From the IMG/VR virus record IMGVR_UViG_3300037153_001168, positions 1-20,176 of that record: a DNA stretch of 20,176 nt. One strand, 5' to 3'. Under the pieces are notes generated by a model. It made no database searches, was not told the origin of the DNA, and saw only the letters and a program-made list of their open reading frames with translations. How positions within the stretch are numbered: position 1 is the stretch's first letter; every line of letters begins with the position of its first letter. Source of the DNA: a virus. The translations under genes and the position numbers were made by a program. Positions 4,862 to 18,852 of this stretch are shown in pieces.

Positions 4862-5923
4862 TTAACGGTGTGTGCTCTGCCACTCGTCCAGCCGCCCCAC
4901 GAGCGACGCCGCCCGGTGGGGATAGGTGTCCTCGGCGACCAGCGGCGGCAGGGCCGCCCCGGCGCCATTCGGATGCGCGAGCGTCTCCCGGACCAGCGCG
5001 CCCAGCTCGTCCGCGGTGGTGCACGTCGGCACCAGCGCGCCGAACTTCTCGGCCACCTCGGCGCGGGGCTGCGAGAGGGTGCAGACCCCATCCGCCGCCA
5101 GCTCGTAGGCGCGCGGGTTGAGGCTTTGGGCCGCGATCGGGATCCCGTCACAGGTGCCGGGGTCGCGGTACAGGTTCAGCCCGATCCTGGCCGCCCGGTA
5201 GAGCGCGCCGGCGCGAGCGTTGTCCACCAGGCCGCCCCGCACAAAGGGCGCCAGGGGGTGGCCGGCGTCCACGTCCCAGTGGCCGTACAGCCCCAGGTCG
5301 ATCCCGGTCCAGTCCACCGCGGCGAGCAGCGCCAGGCGCGACTCGAAGGCGGTGCCGACGAAGACCACGTGGTGCGCGGGGACCGGTTCCCCGACGTACG
5401 GCGTGGATTCTGGCCCGTGCTGGCTGGGGTCGTAGCCCACGGGCAGGTAGTGGGTCTGGGGGTTCGCGGCGCGCAGCACGCCCACGCTGGCCCGCTCGTT
5501 GGTGCAACACACGTCGAACAGCGGCGCGATGGTGGCCTGCTCGCGGTCGTCGTAGGGGCTTTCGGTGAACACGGCGGCGAGGCGCAGGCCGGCCCGCCGA
5601 GCCAGGAGCAGCACGTCGGGGTGCAGGTAGGCGGCGCAGATCACCAGCACCCAGTCCACCTCGTGGCGCAGGGCGCGCTCCAGCAGCCCGACGGCGGCGT
5701 CGTACTGGATGTCGCCCGCGACCGGGCGGGTCTCGGCCAGCGGGCCACCGTGGCGGACCTGGCGCCGCCACTGCCAGTTGAGCCAGATCGACGAGGCGGC
5801 CAGCCGGCCATCGAGCGCGTACTCGTGCACCTCGTGCCCGTTGGCCCGCAGCCCGGCCACCAGCCCGGTGTGCACGTCCGCCGTGGCCCACGAAGCGCCA
5901 GGGTGTGTGACCAGGAACTTCAC
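4862..5923 (-). CDS. Glycosyltransferase, GT-B type, CgeB-like
   Basis: 353 residues from a GTG at 5923 that overlaps the stop of the methyltransferase gene by 4 nt (GTGA). The N-terminal half begins MKFLVTHPGASWATADVHTG and has a Rossmann-like pattern (VDWVLVICAAYLHPDVLLLA, LRLAAVFTESPYDD, FDVCCTNERASV). The second half has VFVGTAFESRLALLAAV, a segment LYRAARIGLNLYRDP, and the C-terminal donor-site-like motif NPRAYELAADGVCTLSQP. The overall plan matches GT-B enzymes of the CgeB/Glyco_trans_1_2 kind. The acceptor and sugar donor cannot be read from sequence. It is the third gene of a tightly coupled cassette between tail terminator and tail tube, which points to glycosylation linked to virion assembly or to the host surface (inference). 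Confidence 0.85.
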   Translation of the reverse strand: MKFLVTHPGASWATADVHTGLVAGLRANGHEVHEYALDGRLAASSIWLNWQWRRQVRHGGPLAETRPVAGDIQYDAAVGLLERALRHEVDWVLVICAAYLHPDVLLLARRAGLRLAAVFTESPYDDREQATIAPLFDVCCTNERASVGVLRAANPQTHYLPVGYDPSQHGPESTPYVGEPVPAHHVVFVGTAFESRLALLAAVDWTGIDLGLYGHWDVDAGHPLAPFVRGGLVDNARAGALYRAARIGLNLYRDPGTCDGIPIAAQSLNPRAYELAADGVCTLSQPRAEVAEKFGALVPTCTTADELGALVRETLAHPNGAGAALPPLVAEDTYPHRAASLVGRLDEWQSTHR

Positions 5924-6477
5924 GCCGCCCCCTCCCCCACCGGCTTCCTCGAGTCCAGCCCCAGGTTGTAAAAGGCCCCCACGCTGATCCGGGGATCGTC
6001 GTAGGGGTGGATCTCGCCCGTCACCACGAAGCCGGCCCGCTCGAGCGCCCGGCGCAAGCTGGCCGCGTCGTAGCTCCACTGGTGCCGGCTGCGCTGGATC
6101 GTCGAGTACAGGAACACGGCGCACACGCTGTCCAGGTCGTCCAGGTTCCAGTGCTGCCCCTGGGGCACCTCCACCCAGGCATGCCCGCGGTCGAGGTACC
6201 GGCGCAGGACCTCGCGCGTGTCGGGCACCACCACGCCCAGCCGGCCGCCGGGGACCAGCACCCGGTAGCACTCGGCCAGCAGCGCGGCGGCGCCCGTTGG
6301 GTCGAAGTGCTCCAGCAGATGACCGCAGTAGATTTCGTCCACCTCGCCATCCTGGAGGTTGATCGGCGGCACATGGACCTGCCAGTCGGCGTGGACCGCC
6401 GGGTCTTCGTCGACGTCGATCCACCCCTCGTCTCGCAGGCCAGCGTGGTAGCCGCCGCTCCCCAGATTGAGCCTCAT
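5920..6477 (-). CDS. SAM-dependent methyltransferase, class I
   Basis: 185 residues. The ATG (6475-6477) shares one base with the TGA of the preceding glycosyltransferase gene (TGATG). The N-terminus MRLNLGSGGYHAGLRDEGWI is SAM-binding motif I (LNLGSGG), followed by an acidic ribose-binding segment (WIDVDEDPAVHADW). VDEIYCGHLLEHFDP and CYRVLVPGGRLGVVVPD are the post-motif I to III strands typical of Methyltransf_11-type enzymes that modify small molecules, sugars or lipids. The C-terminal half (SYDAASLRRALERAGFVV) completes the fold. Coupling to glycosyltransferases on both sides suggests that it methylates a sugar or glycan intermediate; this is inferred from context. The fold assignment is quite sure, the substrate unknown. 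Confidence 0.88.
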   Translation of the reverse strand: MRLNLGSGGYHAGLRDEGWIDVDEDPAVHADWQVHVPPINLQDGEVDEIYCGHLLEHFDPTGAAALLAECYRVLVPGGRLGVVVPDTREVLRRYLDRGHAWVEVPQGQHWNLDDLDSVCAVFLYSTIQRSRHQWSYDAASLRRALERAGFVVTGEIHPYDDPRISVGAFYNLGLDSRKPVGEGAA

Positions 6478-7283
6478 CACCGCGGGACTCCCACCTCGGC
6501 GACTCCTGCTGGCTCGCGCCGCACCGGCACCAGCACGCTCTTCGCCCGCACGTCCACCTCCCGGCCCGCCGCCAGCGCCGGCGCGGCCCCAGTGGTCCGC
6601 GTCCAGTCTTCCGCCTCGCTGGGCTGGGCCTGGGCGATCACCTCGGGCCGCCAGCCCACGCGCTCGAGGCCGCCCCACAAGTCGATGGTCTCGCGGATGA
6701 AGTCAAAATCCCCCTGGTAGCGGTTCGTCCACCTTCCCAGGCGCGCGGGCACGTTGGGGCACACGATGCACTCGGCGTCGACGTGCCCCGGCTCGTCGCC
6801 GAGAAACCCGGCGGTGTGCCAGAGGACCTGCTTCCACGGCGCGATCCAGCGGAACAGGAACACCCGCGGCCGGGGCGCCTCCAGGATGGAGCCCGCTTTC
6901 CGGCGCACGATCGCGCGGGCGATGGCGGCGAAGGCGCCGGGCAGGTACACGTCGTCGTCGCCCAGCCAGGCCAGGTAGCGTCCCTTCGCCACGGTGGCCC
7001 CGTAGTTCCGTTGCGGGTGGCCCCAGGCGTGCTGGCCGCCGTCGTGTTCGACGTAGCGCAGGTGGGGGTCGTCCTCGGCGAGGCGCGCGGCGAGGGGGAG
7101 CTGCGCGGCCCAGGTGGGGGGTCCCCCAGGGGTGCCGGCGTGGGTATCGCCCACGAGGATGCCTTCCCAGGAGAGGGCGCTGGCTTGCTGCGCCAGCGAG
7201 CGCACCGTGCGCGCGAGCGTGGCGCGGCCCACCGTGGGGATGATCACGGACAGCAGGGGAACGGACAGCAGGGGAGTGGTCAT
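6477..7283 (-). CDS. Glycosyltransferase family 2 (GT-A)
   Basis: 268 residues; the ATG at 7281-7283 is preceded by AAGGGGG with short spacing and overlaps the stop of a 12-codon micro-ORF (ATGA). LLSVIIPTVGRATLARTVRS is the classic GT2 N-terminus. NYGATVAKGRYLAWLGDDDV contains the metal-binding DDD/DxD motif near residue 110. The FIRETIDLWGG region near residue 205 resembles the acceptor-side segment of GT2 enzymes. The C-terminal approximately 40 residues are low-complexity. The start region repeats a coding motif (PLLSV occurs twice, and once more in the upstream micro-ORF), as though small duplications occurred there. It is the first gene of the GT2, methyltransferase, GT-B cassette. Substrate unknown. 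Confidence 0.88.
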   Translation of the reverse strand: MTTPLLSVPLLSVIIPTVGRATLARTVRSLAQQASALSWEGILVGDTHAGTPGGPPTWAAQLPLAARLAEDDPHLRYVEHDGGQHAWGHPQRNYGATVAKGRYLAWLGDDDVYLPGAFAAIARAIVRRKAGSILEAPRPRVFLFRWIAPWKQVLWHTAGFLGDEPGHVDAECIVCPNVPARLGRWTNRYQGDFDFIRETIDLWGGLERVGWRPEVIAQAQPSEAEDWTRTTGAAPALAAGREVDVRAKSVLVPVRREPAGVAEVGVPR

Positions 7284-12418: not shown

Positions 12419-13594
12419 CTACGCGACGGCCATCCTGGTGTGAACCCCTGGCCTCGCGTTGGGCGGCCAGGGCGCCCCTTCGGGAGCGGCCGCGGCGAGT
12501 CGCGTCCACGCCGCGGGCCAGCGCCAGGCGTTGCCCTCGAGTCCGTGCGCGGTCGCCACGCGCCGGCGCAGGTTCCTCGCCACGCGGCGCCGCTCGCTGG
12601 CGTCCTCGACCAGCCGGGTCAGCGCCGCCAGCCACTCCTCGCCGCTCGTGGCCAGATACCCGTCTTCGCCGTGGGTGAGCACCTGCCGGTACACCGTGGG
12701 CGAGGCCACCACGGCGGCGCCCCGGCCATCCGCCCCGGCCGCGGCCGCCTCAAAGCACTTGACGGGCGATTTACTCCGGTTGAAGGGGGCATCGGCCAGG
12801 GGGCAGCAGGCGACGTCGACGTTGCGCAGCCCCACCAGGTAGGCGTGCAGGGGCAGCCAGCCAATCGCCACGAGGCGCTCCCGCGGGACGCCAGCGTCCT
12901 CGAAGGCGTCGTAGATCGCGCGGGGCTGGTGGCCCTGGACGACGAAGGTTACCTCGGGGTGCGTCTGGGCGAGCTGGCCCCAGGCCCAGGCCATCGGGGC
13001 CACGTCGTCGTCGGGCCGCGCGCCACCGGCCCAGCCCACGGTCAGCCCCGCCACCTGCCGCGGCGTCCCCTCGCGCAGCACCGCCTTGGCCCAGCGCCAG
13101 TCGATCGCGTTGGGCACCACCTCGATCGGCGCGCTGGTGTACTGGCGGACCACGGTGGCCAGGCGCTGGCTGGTCACGGTCACGCCGTCGCAGAGCTGGA
13201 GGGCCGCGATCCGGTCCAGGCGGGCCTGCTCCTTGGCGGCGGCGGTCTCCTCGGGGCGGATGCCGGCGCGCACGGCCTGGGGCACGATCCAGGGGCTGAA
13301 CAGGTCGTCGTCCACCTCGTACCAGACCCACTTGCCCGCCCGGTGGAGCGCGTCGACCCAGCGCCGGCCCGCCTCCCGCTCCCCCGGACCCCACGAGAGT
13401 CGGGCGAGCAGCACGGCGTCGAAGCGTTCGGCCAGTAGGGCGAGGCGGGGATCGTCTTTCCAGCCCCACTCAGCGGCCCCCACCGGGGCGCCTTGTCGCT
13501 GGAGTTCCGCGAACGGGGCGACGACCCGGAACATGGTGCAGCCATTCCAGTCGCCCACCAACGCGAGCACGCGCGGCGCGGTCCACGCGGCCAT
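12419..13594 (-). CDS. Glycosyltransferase, GT-B type (GT4-like)
   Basis: 391 residues. The ATG at 13592-13594 shares one base with the TGA of the head morphogenesis gene (TGATG). The N-terminal domain starts with RVLALVGDWNGCTMFRVVAP and has the segment AGKWVWYEVDDDLFSPWIVP, common in this GT group. The linker IEVVPNAIDWRWA precedes the second Rossmann domain (LTVGWAGGARPDDDV, VTFVVQGHQPRAIYDA). The donor-site region contains PFNRSKSPVKCFEAAAAGAD followed by AVVASPTVYRQVL, equivalent to the conserved K-x-x-E-A-x-A-x-G-x-P-V-V-A-S motif. The C-terminus is a long helix. Coupling to a head gene suggests that it acts during virion assembly or infection. Target not known. Confidence 0.88.
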   Translation of the reverse strand: MAAWTAPRVLALVGDWNGCTMFRVVAPFAELQRQGAPVGAAEWGWKDDPRLALLAERFDAVLLARLSWGPGEREAGRRWVDALHRAGKWVWYEVDDDLFSPWIVPQAVRAGIRPEETAAAKEQARLDRIAALQLCDGVTVTSQRLATVVRQYTSAPIEVVPNAIDWRWAKAVLREGTPRQVAGLTVGWAGGARPDDDVAPMAWAWGQLAQTHPEVTFVVQGHQPRAIYDAFEDAGVPRERLVAIGWLPLHAYLVGLRNVDVACCPLADAPFNRSKSPVKCFEAAAAGADGRGAAVVASPTVYRQVLTHGEDGYLATSGEEWLAALTRLVEDASERRRVARNLRRRVATAHGLEGNAWRWPAAWTRLAAAAPEGAPWPPNARPGVHTRMAVA

Positions 13595-14175
13595 CAGGTC
13601 GGTTCGACGATGGGCACGAGCCCCAGCCGGCAGTTCACGTGGAGTCGCGCCGGCGGCGGGGACAGCGGCACCACCTGCCCGTTGCGCGCGGCGCACGGTT
13701 CGTCCGTGTCCTCGTTTTCGACCAGCCGCACCCGTTCGACCATCCCGGTCGCCGCGTAGCGGTTCACGGCCGACTGGTGCTGCGCTTCGGCCAGCTCGTT
13801 ACGCGCGACGGTCTCGCTCCTGCCCTTCCAGGTCACGTGGAAGAGCCCGTCGATCCCGCCAAAGGCCGGCTGGCCCTCGCGCGCGGGCACGCCATGGGCC
13901 AGCTCGAAGGCCGAGTAGCCCCGCGCCTGGCCCTCCTGGAGGGTGGCCGCAATCGCCCGGCGGGTGGCGTCGTCGATCAGGACCACGTGCGCCGCCGCCT
14001 CGTCGAGCAGCGCCCGCACCGCCTCGTCGTCCAGCCGGTAGTCCTGGAGTTCGGGGAAGGCGCTCGCCACCAGCTCGTGGACCGCGACCAGCATGCGCGT
14101 GTAGCGGGGGTCGACGATCGCGGCCAGGCGCTCCTGCTCGGCGGCCGCGTCGTAGACGTCTTCCAGCCGGACCAT
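13594..14175 (-). CDS. Head morphogenesis protein, SPP1 gp7 / Mu F-like
   Basis: 193 residues from the ATG at 14175, 3 nt after the stop of the small basic protein gene. The N-terminal two thirds are helical (MVRLEDVYDAAAEQERLAAI, TRRAIAATLQEGQARGYSAF). The C-terminal domain carries the diagnostic pattern: RSETVARNELAEAQHQSAVN, a central RVRLVENEDTDEPCAARNGQ, then PPARLHVNCRLGLVPIV. In the family the last motif is usually H-P-N-C-R-C; here it reads H-V-N-C-R-L, so the final Cys is missing. These minor head proteins bind portal or scaffold and are packaged in the virion. Length is near the short end of the family, which often carries an N-terminal extension. Confidence 0.87.
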   Translation of the reverse strand: MVRLEDVYDAAAEQERLAAIVDPRYTRMLVAVHELVASAFPELQDYRLDDEAVRALLDEAAAHVVLIDDATRRAIAATLQEGQARGYSAFELAHGVPAREGQPAFGGIDGLFHVTWKGRSETVARNELAEAQHQSAVNRYAATGMVERVRLVENEDTDEPCAARNGQVVPLSPPPARLHVNCRLGLVPIVEPT

Positions 14176-15938: not shown

Positions 15939-16367
15939 CCCGGGCCTCCCCCACGTCGTCGCCGGCGCGCTCCAGGCGAGGCCCGGCTTGCGGAAGGCCC
16001 TCGCGCAGGCTTGGCCGCTGAAGGCGCCGCAGGATCGCCTGGTGGCCGGCCGCGGCCTCGTCCCACGTGGCGTAGTGGCCCACGTCGCAAGGATTCCTGA
16101 GCTGGGGCTCGCCATCCGGGGCGTCGAACAGCATCGTCTCAAACAGGAGCGGCCCCGCCAGCCGTACCCCGTTGAGGAACACCGTGCTCAGCTCCCCGCC
16201 GTCCGGCAGCACGTCCAGCGGTCGGCCACGAGGGACAGGGTGTCCCGCTCGTCGGCCAGCGCCACCCGCCGGCCCTCGATCCCGGCCGAAGCCAACCAGG
16301 CCGCCCACGTCGGGCCATCGACCTCCCGCACCTGGTGTCCGTCCAGGATGACGTACAGGGACTTCAT
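15931..16367 (-). pseudogene. Small phage gene interrupted by a 41-bp insertion
   Basis: The ATG at 16367 (9 nt after the TerL stop) begins MKSLYVILDGHQVREVDGPT, then WAAWLASAGIEGRRVA. That frame then enters a 45-bp repeat and stops at 16188 after 59 codons. The adjacent frame from about 16220 to the TAA at 15931 encodes DVLPDGGELSTVFLNGVRLA, then LLFETMLFDAPDGEPQLRNP and YATWDEAAAGHQAILRRL. Removing 41 bp (16221-16261) joins the halves in frame (VALDVLPDGGEL) and gives a continuous protein of about 131 residues, similar to a family found beside TerL in other high-G+C phages. CCAGCG flanks the insert on both sides. The gene therefore appears inactivated in this copy, unless it is rescued by frameshifting. 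Confidence 0.75.
16219..16263. repeat. 45-bp repeat, copy 2 (disrupting a small gene)
   Basis: Identical to 1257-1301. The hairpin occupies 16224-16257. The 6-bp word CCAGCG occurs at 16215-16220 and again at 16256-16261, as expected for an insertion that duplicated its target or for slippage-mediated templated insertion. Excising one unit (41 bp) restores the reading frame of the host gene. Confidence 0.93.
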
Positions 16368-16376
16368 GCCACCGTC

Positions 16377-18404
16377 TCAGAAGAACCTCGTCGTGCCGCC
16401 CGCAAACAATTCGGTGAGCGCCCAGACCAGCGCATCGAGCCGGTCCGGCGAGGGGCCACTGCCCGGCACCCAGCCACAATTGTGCACGAGGATGCCGTTG
16501 GCGAAGTACTCCGGCGGTCCGGCCACGGTCAGATTGTAGACCGGCTCAGCGATACCAGTCGGGATGATGCCGATGATAGTGCCGGTCACGACAGGGACGG
16601 CCACAGAAGGTGGCGCGGGTGCCGGTCGAAGCAAAGACCACCCCGCACTCGACGCAGGTGACCGAGTGCGTCGGCTTGCGCTGCCAGTAGGCCCGGTGTT
16701 GTGCGGCGCGGCTCGCACGGCCCTCGGGCGAGAGGACCCGGTCTCCGACGTGCGCACGCACGTGAGTCGTGCGTGGGAGCGCCACCAGGTTCTCGGGGGC
16801 GTTGTTGCCCCGATCCCCGTCCCGGTGATGGACCTGCCAGCCAGGGGGGATCGGGCCATGGCCCGCCGCGTAGACGTCGCGGTGCAGGAGTCGACGGCCA
16901 CGGCTCCGGCTGGTGCGGTAATAGCCCGTGTTGTCGAGGAAGTACCGCTCGCCACCAAAGGCCACAAATGGGCGCACGATCGGAACGGGCACCCAATAAT
17001 TGTATCCTGTGTATGGGCTTCAATGGCGGGGACGAAGCCGCGGCCGAGCACGAAGAGGGGATGGTGCGGCGTGGCGCACAGCGTGCCGAGCGTGGTCGTG
17101 ATGCGGATGGTGCGGCGCACCCCGGTCGGCCCGGCACGCAGCACGGGTCGCCACCCCGCACGCGTCAGGACCAGGTCGCCCACGCCTACCGACTCCACCG
17201 GGATGCGGCCGCGCCAGGTGCTGATCCTGGTCCCTGCCGCCAGGCAGAGCTGGTCCTCGAGCGCCGCGAAGGTGCCCACGTGGTGCGCCTCGCCCCGCTC
17301 ATAGCGGCTGCTGATCGGCTCGGCCCGCGCCTGCTTGCCGTGCGAGGCGCGGACCCCCCGGTAGGGCACGCGCTCGTCCACACTGCGGATGGTGGCCTCC
17401 ACCATCTCGCCGCCCTGGTTCGTTTCGGCCACCAGCAGGTTGGCGTGGTGGCGATGATAGGCCGCGACGGCCTCGGACGCCCAGCGCTGGGGGCTGCCCC
17501 GCAGCGAGGCGTCGTCCAGCACGTAGCCATGGCCGTCCACGCCCAGCGCGGCGACCACGATCCCCGTCTCGGCGCTGCCCTCGGTACTGGTCGCTTCTGG
17601 ATCCACGCCCACCACGATGCGGACCAGCTCCGGATGCCGGACCACCCGGTGCCGGTCCAGCGCCGCCCGCTGCCAGAGGGCGCCGGGCTGGTCCTCGAGC
17701 AGCTCGGCCAGCAGCTCCTGGCGCCCCAGCCGGGTGCCTTCGTAGCGCCGGATGATCTGCTCGTAGAAGGCGCTGGCCAGGTTGGCCCGGTTCTCGTAGG
17801 TGCTGCCCCGCGTCACCACCGTGTGCGGATCGGCCAGCAGCGTGCGCAGGAGCGCGATGGGCCGCGGCGTGGTGGTGGCCACCACCTGCGGGTTCGTGCC
17901 CAGGCGCAGGCCGAGCATGGCTTGTGCCCAGGCGTCCTCGCTATACCGCCAGGCGGCGGGCTCGTCGCACCACAGCTTCTGGTGCTGCTTGCCCCGCAGC
18001 CGGTCGGGCTCGTCGGCGGTGAAGATCAGCGACTGCGCCCCGTTGGGCCAGTCCAGGCGCCGCTCGGCCTTCTTGTAGGTCGGGCGCTCGTCGGGAGGGC
18101 AGAGGGCGAGAATCCCGCTCTCGCCGAGCACCATCACGTCGCGGGCGTCGTCGGCCGTGGCCCCGATCAGGTTGACCAGCGTGTCGCCGGCGCGCACCCA
18201 TCGGCGGACCAATTCGCCGCCGGCGCGCGTCTTTCCCCAGCCCCGGCCCGCGAGGACCAGCCACACCCGCCAGTCGCCCGGCGGCGGGTGCTGGCTGGGG
18301 CGGCCCCAGAAGCGCCAGTCGTGCTCAAGCTGCGCCGCGGCCGCCCGCGTCGGGGTCAGCCTGGCCAGCTCCGAGTCGCGCTCGGCTGCCGGGAGCAAGC
18401 TCAC
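16377..18404 (-). CDS. terL: Terminase large subunit with intein
   Basis: The packaging motor ATPase and nuclease. 675 codons from a GTG at 18404; the upstream open frame shadows TerS, and a GTG at 18461 is an alternative start. ATPase features are RVWLVLAGRGWGKTRAGGEL (Walker A near residues 53-59), KLWCDEPAAWRY (Walker B DE near 147-148) and VVATTTPRPIALL (coupling motif). The nuclease carries acidic residues in IVVGVDPEATS (near 268), LLVAETNQGGEM (near 327) and SPDRLDALVWALTELF at the C-terminus. An intein of 256 residues (387-642) splits the conserved site LEDQL|CGWVPGSG. After removal the product is 419 residues, the normal length for this family. The start overlaps the TerS stop by 80 nt, and no strong Shine-Dalgarno is seen. 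Confidence 0.93.
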   Translation of the reverse strand: MSLLPAAERDSELARLTPTRAAAAQLEHDWRFWGRPSQHPPPGDWRVWLVLAGRGWGKTRAGGELVRRWVRAGDTLVNLIGATADDARDVMVLGESGILALCPPDERPTYKKAERRLDWPNGAQSLIFTADEPDRLRGKQHQKLWCDEPAAWRYSEDAWAQAMLGLRLGTNPQVVATTTPRPIALLRTLLADPHTVVTRGSTYENRANLASAFYEQIIRRYEGTRLGRQELLAELLEDQPGALWQRAALDRHRVVRHPELVRIVVGVDPEATSTEGSAETGIVVAALGVDGHGYVLDDASLRGSPQRWASEAVAAYHRHHANLLVAETNQGGEMVEATIRSVDERVPYRGVRASHGKQARAEPISSRYERGEAHHVGTFAALEDQLCLAAGTRISTWRGRIPVESVGVGDLVLTRAGWRPVLRAGPTGVRRTIRITTTLGTLCATPHHPLFVLGRGFVPAIEAHTQDTIIGCPFRSCAHLWPLVASGTSSTTRAITAPAGAVAVDSCTATSTRRAMARSPLAGRSITGTGIGATTPPRTWWRSHARLTCVRTSETGSSRPRAVRAAPHNTGPTGSASRRTRSPASSAGWSLLRPAPAPPSVAVPVVTGTIIGIIPTGIAEPVYNLTVAGPPEYFANGILVHNCGWVPGSGPSPDRLDALVWALTELFAGGTTRFF
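16479..17246 (-). other. Intein within TerL
   Basis: The first residue is Cys of CLAAGTRISTWRGRIPVESV (block A), continuing with GVGDLVLTRAGWRPVL. GTLCATPHHPLFV is block B with the T-x-x-H motif (TPHH). Block F/G reads EPVYNLTVAGPPEYFANGIL followed by VHN, and the +1 extein residue is Cys. All splice-junction residues (Cys1, penultimate His, terminal Asn, Cys+1) are present, so splicing looks chemically possible. Between intein residues about 86 and 233 the TerL frame is a low-quality Ser/Thr/Arg/Pro sequence that looks like a shadow frame; the same DNA in another frame encodes an HNH endonuclease. The frame is nevertheless open through the whole intein. Confidence 0.93.
16546..16992 (-). CDS. 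HNH homing endonuclease nested out of frame in the intein
   Basis: 148 residues from a GTG at 16992 to a TGA at 16546. The sequence has the look of a phage HNH enzyme: FVAFGGERYFLDNTGYYRTS, GRRLLHRDVYAAGHGPIPPG, then WQVHHRDGDRGNNAPENLVA, which holds the HNH core (HH plus NN-x-x-x-NL). A C-terminal zinc site follows (CVECG, then FCGRPC). HNH enzymes of this kind cleave an intein-free target and promote homing. The frame differs from TerL; a TGA lies 13 codons upstream of the GTG, so it is not a fusion in its own frame. Only a weak AGGA lies 14 nt upstream of the GTG. It may be translated independently, by frameshifting from the intein, or be a remnant out of frame. Confidence 0.87.
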   Translation of the reverse strand: MPVPIVRPFVAFGGERYFLDNTGYYRTSRSRGRRLLHRDVYAAGHGPIPPGWQVHHRDGDRGNNAPENLVALPRTTHVRAHVGDRVLSPEGRASRAAQHRAYWQRKPTHSVTCVECGVVFASTGTRATFCGRPCRDRHYHRHHPDWYR

Positions 18405-18852
18405 TAATTCGGCCAGTGAGGCGTTCCCGAAGCTCGGTAACGCTAAGCTCGACAGGACCACCGTCCGGACCAGTATGCGCCAGTTGCCCGCGCAGGTCGA
18501 CTCGCTCGCGGTAGGTCTCCGGCTTGCGGGCCTTGAGCAGCAGCACCAGCAGGGTGTCCGAGTACTCGCGGATGGTCTCGCGGCCGACCCGCTTGCCCCG
18601 CGAAAAGATGGGCCGCTCGCGTTCGACGCCATCGACGGCGCGGCGCCAGGCTTCCGCTTCCAGCCGTTCGGTCGCTTCGCCCTCGGCGGCGGCCATGGCG
18701 GCGGCGAAGCGCGAGTCGCCCTGCTGCCACTTGTAGACCGTGGCCCGGTCGATCCCCACGGCTTCGGCAGCGGTGGTCACGTTGCCCCGCTGGCGGTAGT
18801 GGGCCAGGAAGCGCGCCTTGTGCTCGCGCGTGAGGGACCGTGGCGTTTGCAC
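18325..18852 (-). CDS. terS: Terminase small subunit
   Basis: 175 residues from a GTG at 18852. The N-terminal domain (RSLTREHKARFLAHYRQRGN followed by VTTAAEAVGIDRATVYKWQQ) is a helix-turn-helix DNA-binding unit of the phage terminase small subunit / phBC6A51 type. The next segment (EGEATERLEAEAWRRAVDGV) is an oligomerisation helix. Then comes ETIREYSDTLLVLLLKARKP followed by ETYRERVDLR, the typical end of the core. The C-terminal approximately 45 residues (ELSVTELRERLTGRISELAP) are a tail that overlaps the start of TerL in another frame. It recognises the packaging site and feeds DNA to TerL. The start lacks a clear Shine-Dalgarno. Confidence 0.9.
   Translation of the reverse strand: MQTPRSLTREHKARFLAHYRQRGNVTTAAEAVGIDRATVYKWQQGDSRFAAAMAAAEGEATERLEAEAWRRAVDGVERERPIFSRGKRVGRETIREYSDTLLVLLLKARKPETYRERVDLRGQLAHTGPDGGPVELSVTELRERLTGRISELAPGSRARLGAGQADPDAGGRGAA

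Follow-up and report, generated by a model that had tools for sequence, protein, structure and literature searches.

In textbook inteins the endonuclease is a domain of the excised protein. The large terminase gene (terL) in the viral DNA analysed here, a stretch of 20,176 nucleotides that we call the window, carries an intein in which an HNH endonuclease is readable only in a different frame. The locus raises the question of whether two functional products share the same DNA, or whether the second frame is a relic, an assembly artefact or part of a different mode of expression. We conclude from sequence and predicted structure that the locus very probably combines a TerL intein that is contiguous and competent for splicing with an HNH homing-endonuclease gene that is nested in its +2 frame and translated independently.

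The TerL intein and the nested HNH gene

The intein occupies 256 codons inside terL (17246-16479, minus strand), and no stop codon interrupts the TerL frame. Its boundaries are exact: C1 lies at 17246, N256 ends at 16479 and C+1 comes next, with the junctions ALEDQL/CLAAGTRI and ANGILVHN/CGWVPG. The TerL frame of the intein matches the Pfam families Hint_2 (5.6e-7) and Intein_splicing (1e-4), and its C-terminus matches TIGR01443 (1.2e-5). These matches and the exact coordinates bear out the initial annotation, which had described complete splice motifs within 256 open codons. The element has the features of a class 1 (Cys) intein, namely a Hint fold, C1, a block B TxxH motif, a penultimate His, a terminal Asn and Cys at +1. 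Across the intein family, C1, G13, T28, G31 and H62 are invariant in the N-terminal part, as are E246-G251 and L253-N256 in the C-terminal part. From the complete motifs we infer that the intein is competent for splicing.

The window TerL is at most 49% identical to TerL in public phage records. We guess that GTG 18461 is its start codon. The length of spliced TerL hangs on this choice and would be 438 aa from that GTG, not the 419 residues first proposed. An ORF with a helix-turn-helix-like start (18325-18852, minus strand) overlaps the 5' end of terL and is probably the small terminase subunit. By eye, three ORFs among the structural genes (5920-6678, 6477-7283 and 12419-13696 (-)) have the look of a methyltransferase and of glycosyltransferases.

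Relative to TerL, the HNH gene is in frame +2 (= -1); it runs from GTG 16992 to TGA 16548-16546. Pfam HNH_3 matches this frame (1e-14) and not the TerL frame, which upholds the earlier claim that the HNH can be read only outside the TerL frame, with its own GTG and TGA. An in-frame TGA (17022-17020) lies just upstream of the GTG, so the HNH ORF is not readable through from further up. The nested protein has the core His and Asn and the zinc-site Cys residues of HNH_3, and H37, H55, H56, N64, H77, C113, C116 and C134 are invariant in 45 HNH homologues. The element does not have the form of a full-length intein with an in-frame endonuclease, as the HNH is found in +2 alone and frame 0 is predicted to be disordered.

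Features of the terL locus in the window, listed in the direction of transcription
Feature	Position	Strand	Evidence
TerL N-extein (ATPase domain, larger part of the nuclease domain)	17247..18461	-	Terminase_6N 2.6e-25, Terminase_6C 1.2e-9
N-terminal splicing part, intein residues 1-92 (C1, block B T59..H62)	16971..17246	-	Hint_2, pLDDT
TGA stop closing the HNH frame upstream	17020..17022	-	frame read
-10-like hexamer TACAAT, ends 6 nt before GTG	16999..17004	-	unchanged in near relative L001; suggestive only
Nested HNH homing-endonuclease-like gene, 148 aa, GTG start, TGA stop	16546..16992	-	HNH_3, AlphaFold2, dN/dS
In-frame linker, intein residues 93-217 (HNH gene read in the TerL frame)	16596..16970	-	pLDDT, dN/dS, no stop
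C-terminal splicing part, intein residues 218-256 (YFANGILVHN, N256)	16479..16595	-	TIGR01443, pLDDT
TerL C-extein: C+1 GWVPGSGPSPDRLDALVWALTELFAGGTTRFF then stop	16377..16478	-	read of TerL frame

AlphaFold2 predicts the HNH protein with a mean pLDDT of 92.2. The intron homing enzyme I-HmuI (PDB 1u3e) is the sole strong match in a fold search (Foldseek 1.6e-3), superimposes with Z 8.1 and an rmsd of 2.9 over 75 residues, and is also the closest solved HNH by profile (6.6e-5). For the TerL frame, pLDDT is about 87-98 over intein residues 1-90 and 220-256, reaching 96-98 over most of the N-splicing part and ~96 for the C-splicing part. The middle of the intein is predicted to be disordered: pLDDT in the linker is mostly 31-56, and under 50 for residues 97-156 and 160-203. 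The splicing parts match the folds of the gp41-1, DnaB and RecA inteins. The best solved relative of the intein-family profile is gp41-1 (1e-17), and NrdJ-1 also matches.

Ribosomes in the terL frame would translate the nested stretch into a linker of about 125 unstructured residues, which the Hint domain, given its complete motifs, could excise along with the intein. Initiated at GTG 16992, the same DNA would yield a 148-aa HNH/zinc-finger endonuclease, as selection and predicted structure indicate. This enzyme may cut intein-free terL at the LEDQL/CGW junction, and repair would then copy the element in. In a subset of loci that includes the window, a -10 element belonging to the nested gene may give rise to a leaderless mRNA; at other loci the gene would start at an ATG with a Shine-Dalgarno sequence or with no evident signal.

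Conservation, probable mobility and a second clade

Viral contigs were retrieved by the C-terminal splice motif EYFANGxxVHNC alone to avoid selection by frame. The first set comprises 113 non-redundant loci, including the window and TJE1; 106 have an HNH, all in +2, and the remaining seven are mini-inteins of 124-155 residues. A further motif scan gave an HNH in +2 in 28 of 32 loci, a set that includes five +2 loci brought in from separate scans, and four mini-inteins. In bacterial genomes, among them Beijerinckia mobilis and Bacteroides mediterraneensis, 11 of 13 loci have the HNH in +2 and two are mini-inteins. Counting motif-fetched loci only, the HNH is in +2 in 138 of 138 (104 + 23 + 11) and never in frame 0 or +1, by a profile that was seeded from out-of-frame cases yet run alike on all three frames; 13 further loci are mini-inteins. 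The profile is blind to other nuclease families, and the HNH-free loci are too short for one. The loci are not all independent: the first-set HNH proteins form 81, 43 and 22 clusters at 70, 50 and 40% identity.

Over the 81 clusters, the TerL frame contains no stop codon where synonymous-codon shuffles of the HNH predict 213, and the third frame of the same clusters has 1436. The HNH start usually falls between about +218 and +285, counted from the start of the intein. Its stop most often lies 55 nt before the intein end, within the VYD/VYN codons of block F. The same layout occurs at different TerL sites and apparently also in other host genes. The nested layout is conserved and widespread, in well over 100 loci, and does not reflect an artefact or a stage of decay. 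The initial annotation had offered two readings. A separately translated nested gene, as a new arrangement, is strongly supported by selection, predicted structure and the family-wide frame. The other reading, a pair of compensating frameshifts that mark an unusual stage in the homing cycle, does not agree with a layout that is uniform in all 22 HNH clusters defined at 40% identity.

Among the TerL relatives scored, an intein at the window's TerL site was found only in L001 (IMG/VR contig 3300037153_000686), the single near relative located; the motif left the rest unscored. Related inteins are inserted elsewhere; that of L002, for one, precedes the DELAAW motif of TerL. In the cultured phages TJE1 (Tetrasphaera phage, HQ225832) and Highwayman, the nested HNH lies within an annotated terminase, and only 'terminase' is annotated. 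The enzyme family, the empty sites and the multi-site distribution suggest that the nested HNH mediates homing. The HNH could alternatively serve DNA packaging, like phage HNH proteins that adjoin TerL, since it is located in terL, and BP10, EauM-23, CL2 and Shemara have free-standing relatives next to their terminase genes. We consider this role very improbable. The HNH is absent at the window's site from most TerL relatives (49 of 80 run through the insertion site without an insert). It occurs in inteins at more than one TerL site and apparently in host genes other than terL. Mini-inteins without an HNH are interspersed with relatives that have one, and the fold match is an intron homing enzyme.

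In Acinetobacter phage BP10 (L376), TerL spans 469 codons without an intein, and a free-standing relative of the HNH lies upstream of terS. Compared with Highwayman (L375), where the HNH is nested, BP10 points to a possible exchange between free and nested states. Split TerL inteins also occur, in two cultured phages. In Vibrio phage 1.245.O (L378, NC_055736, 1401-3120) terL is fractured: a complete HNH, in the same +2 register, lies between an N-intein ORF and a separate C-intein ORF, which is annotated as a hedgehog/hint domain protein. In Brochothrix phage BL3 (L379, NC_015254, 1900-2600) a split intein divides TerL into gp2 and gp3, and just zinc-finger remnants of the HNH are left in +2 between them. 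These two cases fit a path from nested intein through fractured gene to split intein, without proving its direction. Locus L195, where the HNH is fused in frame with the C-intein half and the N-intein half is in another frame, is possibly a different kind of fractured gene.

A second clade of inteins, with the motif [ND]YFANG, has a nested ORF of at least 170 codons in +1 (53 loci, 41 clusters). Many of these inteins occupy a helicase-like VDEC site. The nested proteins have a Vsr/EDxHD look by motif in 28 of the 41 clusters, and the one that was searched matches DUF559 (1.8e-12). At L129-L230 (e.g. L135, L149, L196, L234) the +1 gene has zinc fingers together with a Vsr/EDxHD nuclease. The intein frame of the clade has no stop codons where 445 are expected. 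Substitutions at intein positions 1/2/3 are.34/.15/.12, with the peak at position 1, which is the third position of the nested gene. An earlier idea, that nesting is always in +2 since only +2 avoids stops, was dropped once this clade appeared. When the splicing domains are placed in a tree, a supported branch (100/94) separates inteins with the nested +2 HNH from those with the nested +1 gene; mini-inteins are scattered on both sides, and many forks are poorly resolved. This suggests at least two origins of nesting and repeated losses.

Start signals and selection on the two frames

The -10-like hexamer of the window ends 6 nt before the GTG, so that transcription would begin at about the start codon, and we suggest that the HNH mRNA is leaderless. 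This reading stays a suggestion because a full sigma70 consensus was not found before the window HNH, where a good -35 is lacking. The codons at the hexamer (CAT ACA CAG GAT ACA ATT ATT) include ones that are rare in the N-extein of the window TerL: ACA encodes 0/22 Thr, GAT 2/22 Asp and ATT 1/10 Ile. Against synonymous shuffles, the -10 element of L001 gives p=0.007. Elsewhere in the family, a TATAAT-like hexamer lies exactly 6 nt before the start in ~1/3 of later-starting HNH loci, often with TTGAC upstream. The promoter score of the discovery set (mean 4.55 vs 1.13 +- 0.27) is above all 300 sets of shuffles that preserve the intein protein. The geometry had been picked on these loci, so the score was frozen and then applied to 17 new, independent loci, where the mean of -0.03 (vs -1.73 +- 0.55) is above all 500 shuffle sets. 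A strong site is present in just 3 of the 17, and the class starting near +218 is without it. A leaderless promoter as a universal rule was rejected on these grounds; leaderless expression may be a feature of a subset.

The window has a Shine-Dalgarno-like AGGA 12 nt from the GTG. As a general start signal Shine-Dalgarno was rejected, with at least four matching bases in 17 of 81 loci vs 17.4 at control positions. It is slightly above synonymous shuffles in some start classes, weak overall, and clear in some loci (L114, TAAGGAGG; L038, AAGGAG). At L011, L013, L098 and other AT-rich loci, the HNH starts near +218 at an ATG that shares bases with a conserved Trp codon of the intein (..A TGG). 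Starts of this type follow an A-rich stretch without Shine-Dalgarno.

If ribosomes instead left the TerL frame by programmed -1 frameshifting, the product would be an N-extein/N-intein/HNH fusion, and the HNH is indeed -1 relative to TerL, the usual direction, in every HNH locus of the family. Slippery X XXY YYZ heptamers, however, occur near the HNH start in 13 of 81 loci against 12 expected, and none is seen by eye in the window. Many HNH frames have a stop shortly before the conserved ATG, and the second clade nests in +1. Frameshifting is accordingly a very improbable account, a shade more so than a role in packaging.

An open second frame alone is weak evidence in a GC-rich genome, and the chance of no stop under synonymous shuffling is p=0.26 in L001. 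The HNH match, the frame-switching substitution pattern and the conservation across the family are together far beyond chance. L001 is 11% diverged in DNA and its HNH is 86-88% identical to that of the window. Both frames are open as in the window, and the one 6-nt indel breaks neither. Between the two, substitutions at intein codon positions 1/2/3 number 9/3/14 in the N-splicing domain, the pattern of a normal gene, and 3/32/10 in the HNH stretch. The latter is expected under selection on the HNH frame because HNH position 3 is intein position 2. Pooled pairs give.30/.25/.50 for the N-splicing domain vs.29/.48/.33 for the HNH stretch.

Computed on the same DNA for window vs L001 (Nei-Gojobori), dN/dS is 0.17 in the HNH frame and 1.53 in the linker frame; the N-splicing domain has 0.48. 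In seven further pairs it is 0.16-0.23 for the HNH where defined (two are saturated), 0.80-1.60 for the linker and 0.09-0.33 for the splicing domain. A degraded HNH frame with a conserved linker, named at the outset as evidence against nesting, is the opposite of what is seen. The proposal that the linker is ~148 non-selected residues holds for its amino acid sequence (dN/dS about 0.8-1.6) and fails for its openness, as it is held free of stop codons.

On another reading, two compensating indels, real or assembly-made, shifted the intein frame, and the intein or the HNH is a decaying relic. Such indel pairs can arise in assemblies, but we reject this reading as having next to no probability, since the diverged L001 contig keeps the same two frames despite its in-frame indel, selection acts on both, and the layout recurs in TJE1, Highwayman and bacterial genomes. 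A hidden intron RNA was likewise rejected: with E values as high as 1 admitted, Rfam still matches no intron family in 16200-17600, and the host frame is open.

Significance and comparison with known systems

A search of open-access full texts turned up no intein whose endonuclease gene lies out of frame. The locus represents what appears to be a new intein variant with an endonuclease gene nested in another frame, although priority is not certain. Nesting would uncouple the endonuclease from host-gene expression and splicing while the two share DNA, which alters how intein mobility could be regulated. It would also explain why annotators overlook such enzymes, as in TJE1 and Highwayman. The family provides many natural examples of long overlaps with dual coding, where one frame appears selected for sequence and the other mainly for openness. 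It also suggests, in concrete terms, how contiguous inteins could turn into fractured genes and into natural split inteins such as gp41-1. We lean towards the broader view that dual-coded phage inteins are widespread (HNH in +2, Vsr/EDxHD in +1), in part with a leaderless promoter, and that breakage of the linker gives rise to fractured genes and natural split inteins.

I-HmuI is the closest solved relative of the window HNH by both profile and fold. It is carried by an RNA intron, whereas no intron RNA family is present at the window locus. Fractured genes, in which split inteins flank a free-standing endonuclease gene, were reportedly described by Dassa et al. in 2009. They resemble the window in having an endonuclease gene between intein halves, and gp41-1 is the best solved match of the window's intein family. 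Their halves are separate ORFs, however, while host gene and intein form a single open frame in the window and in L001. Phage MIJ3 also has a split intein that flanks an HNH gene (PMC6892783).

The methylases of phage ShiLan share with the window a zinc-finger HNH that is readable only in another ('third') frame of an open host gene, with a GTG start and no Shine-Dalgarno seen. The ShiLan authors proposed leaderless initiation for this out-of-frame HNH. ShiLan has no splicing domain, so its insert is thought to remain in the protein; the window, in contrast, has a complete intein with its splicing domain. The dCTP deaminase intein of cyanophage CL131, whose self-excision was shown in E. coli, likewise combines a Hint domain and an HNH_3 in one phage intein (PMC6293099). 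By that paper's account its HNH is in frame, as a domain of the intein protein, whereas that of the window is encoded in another frame of the same DNA.
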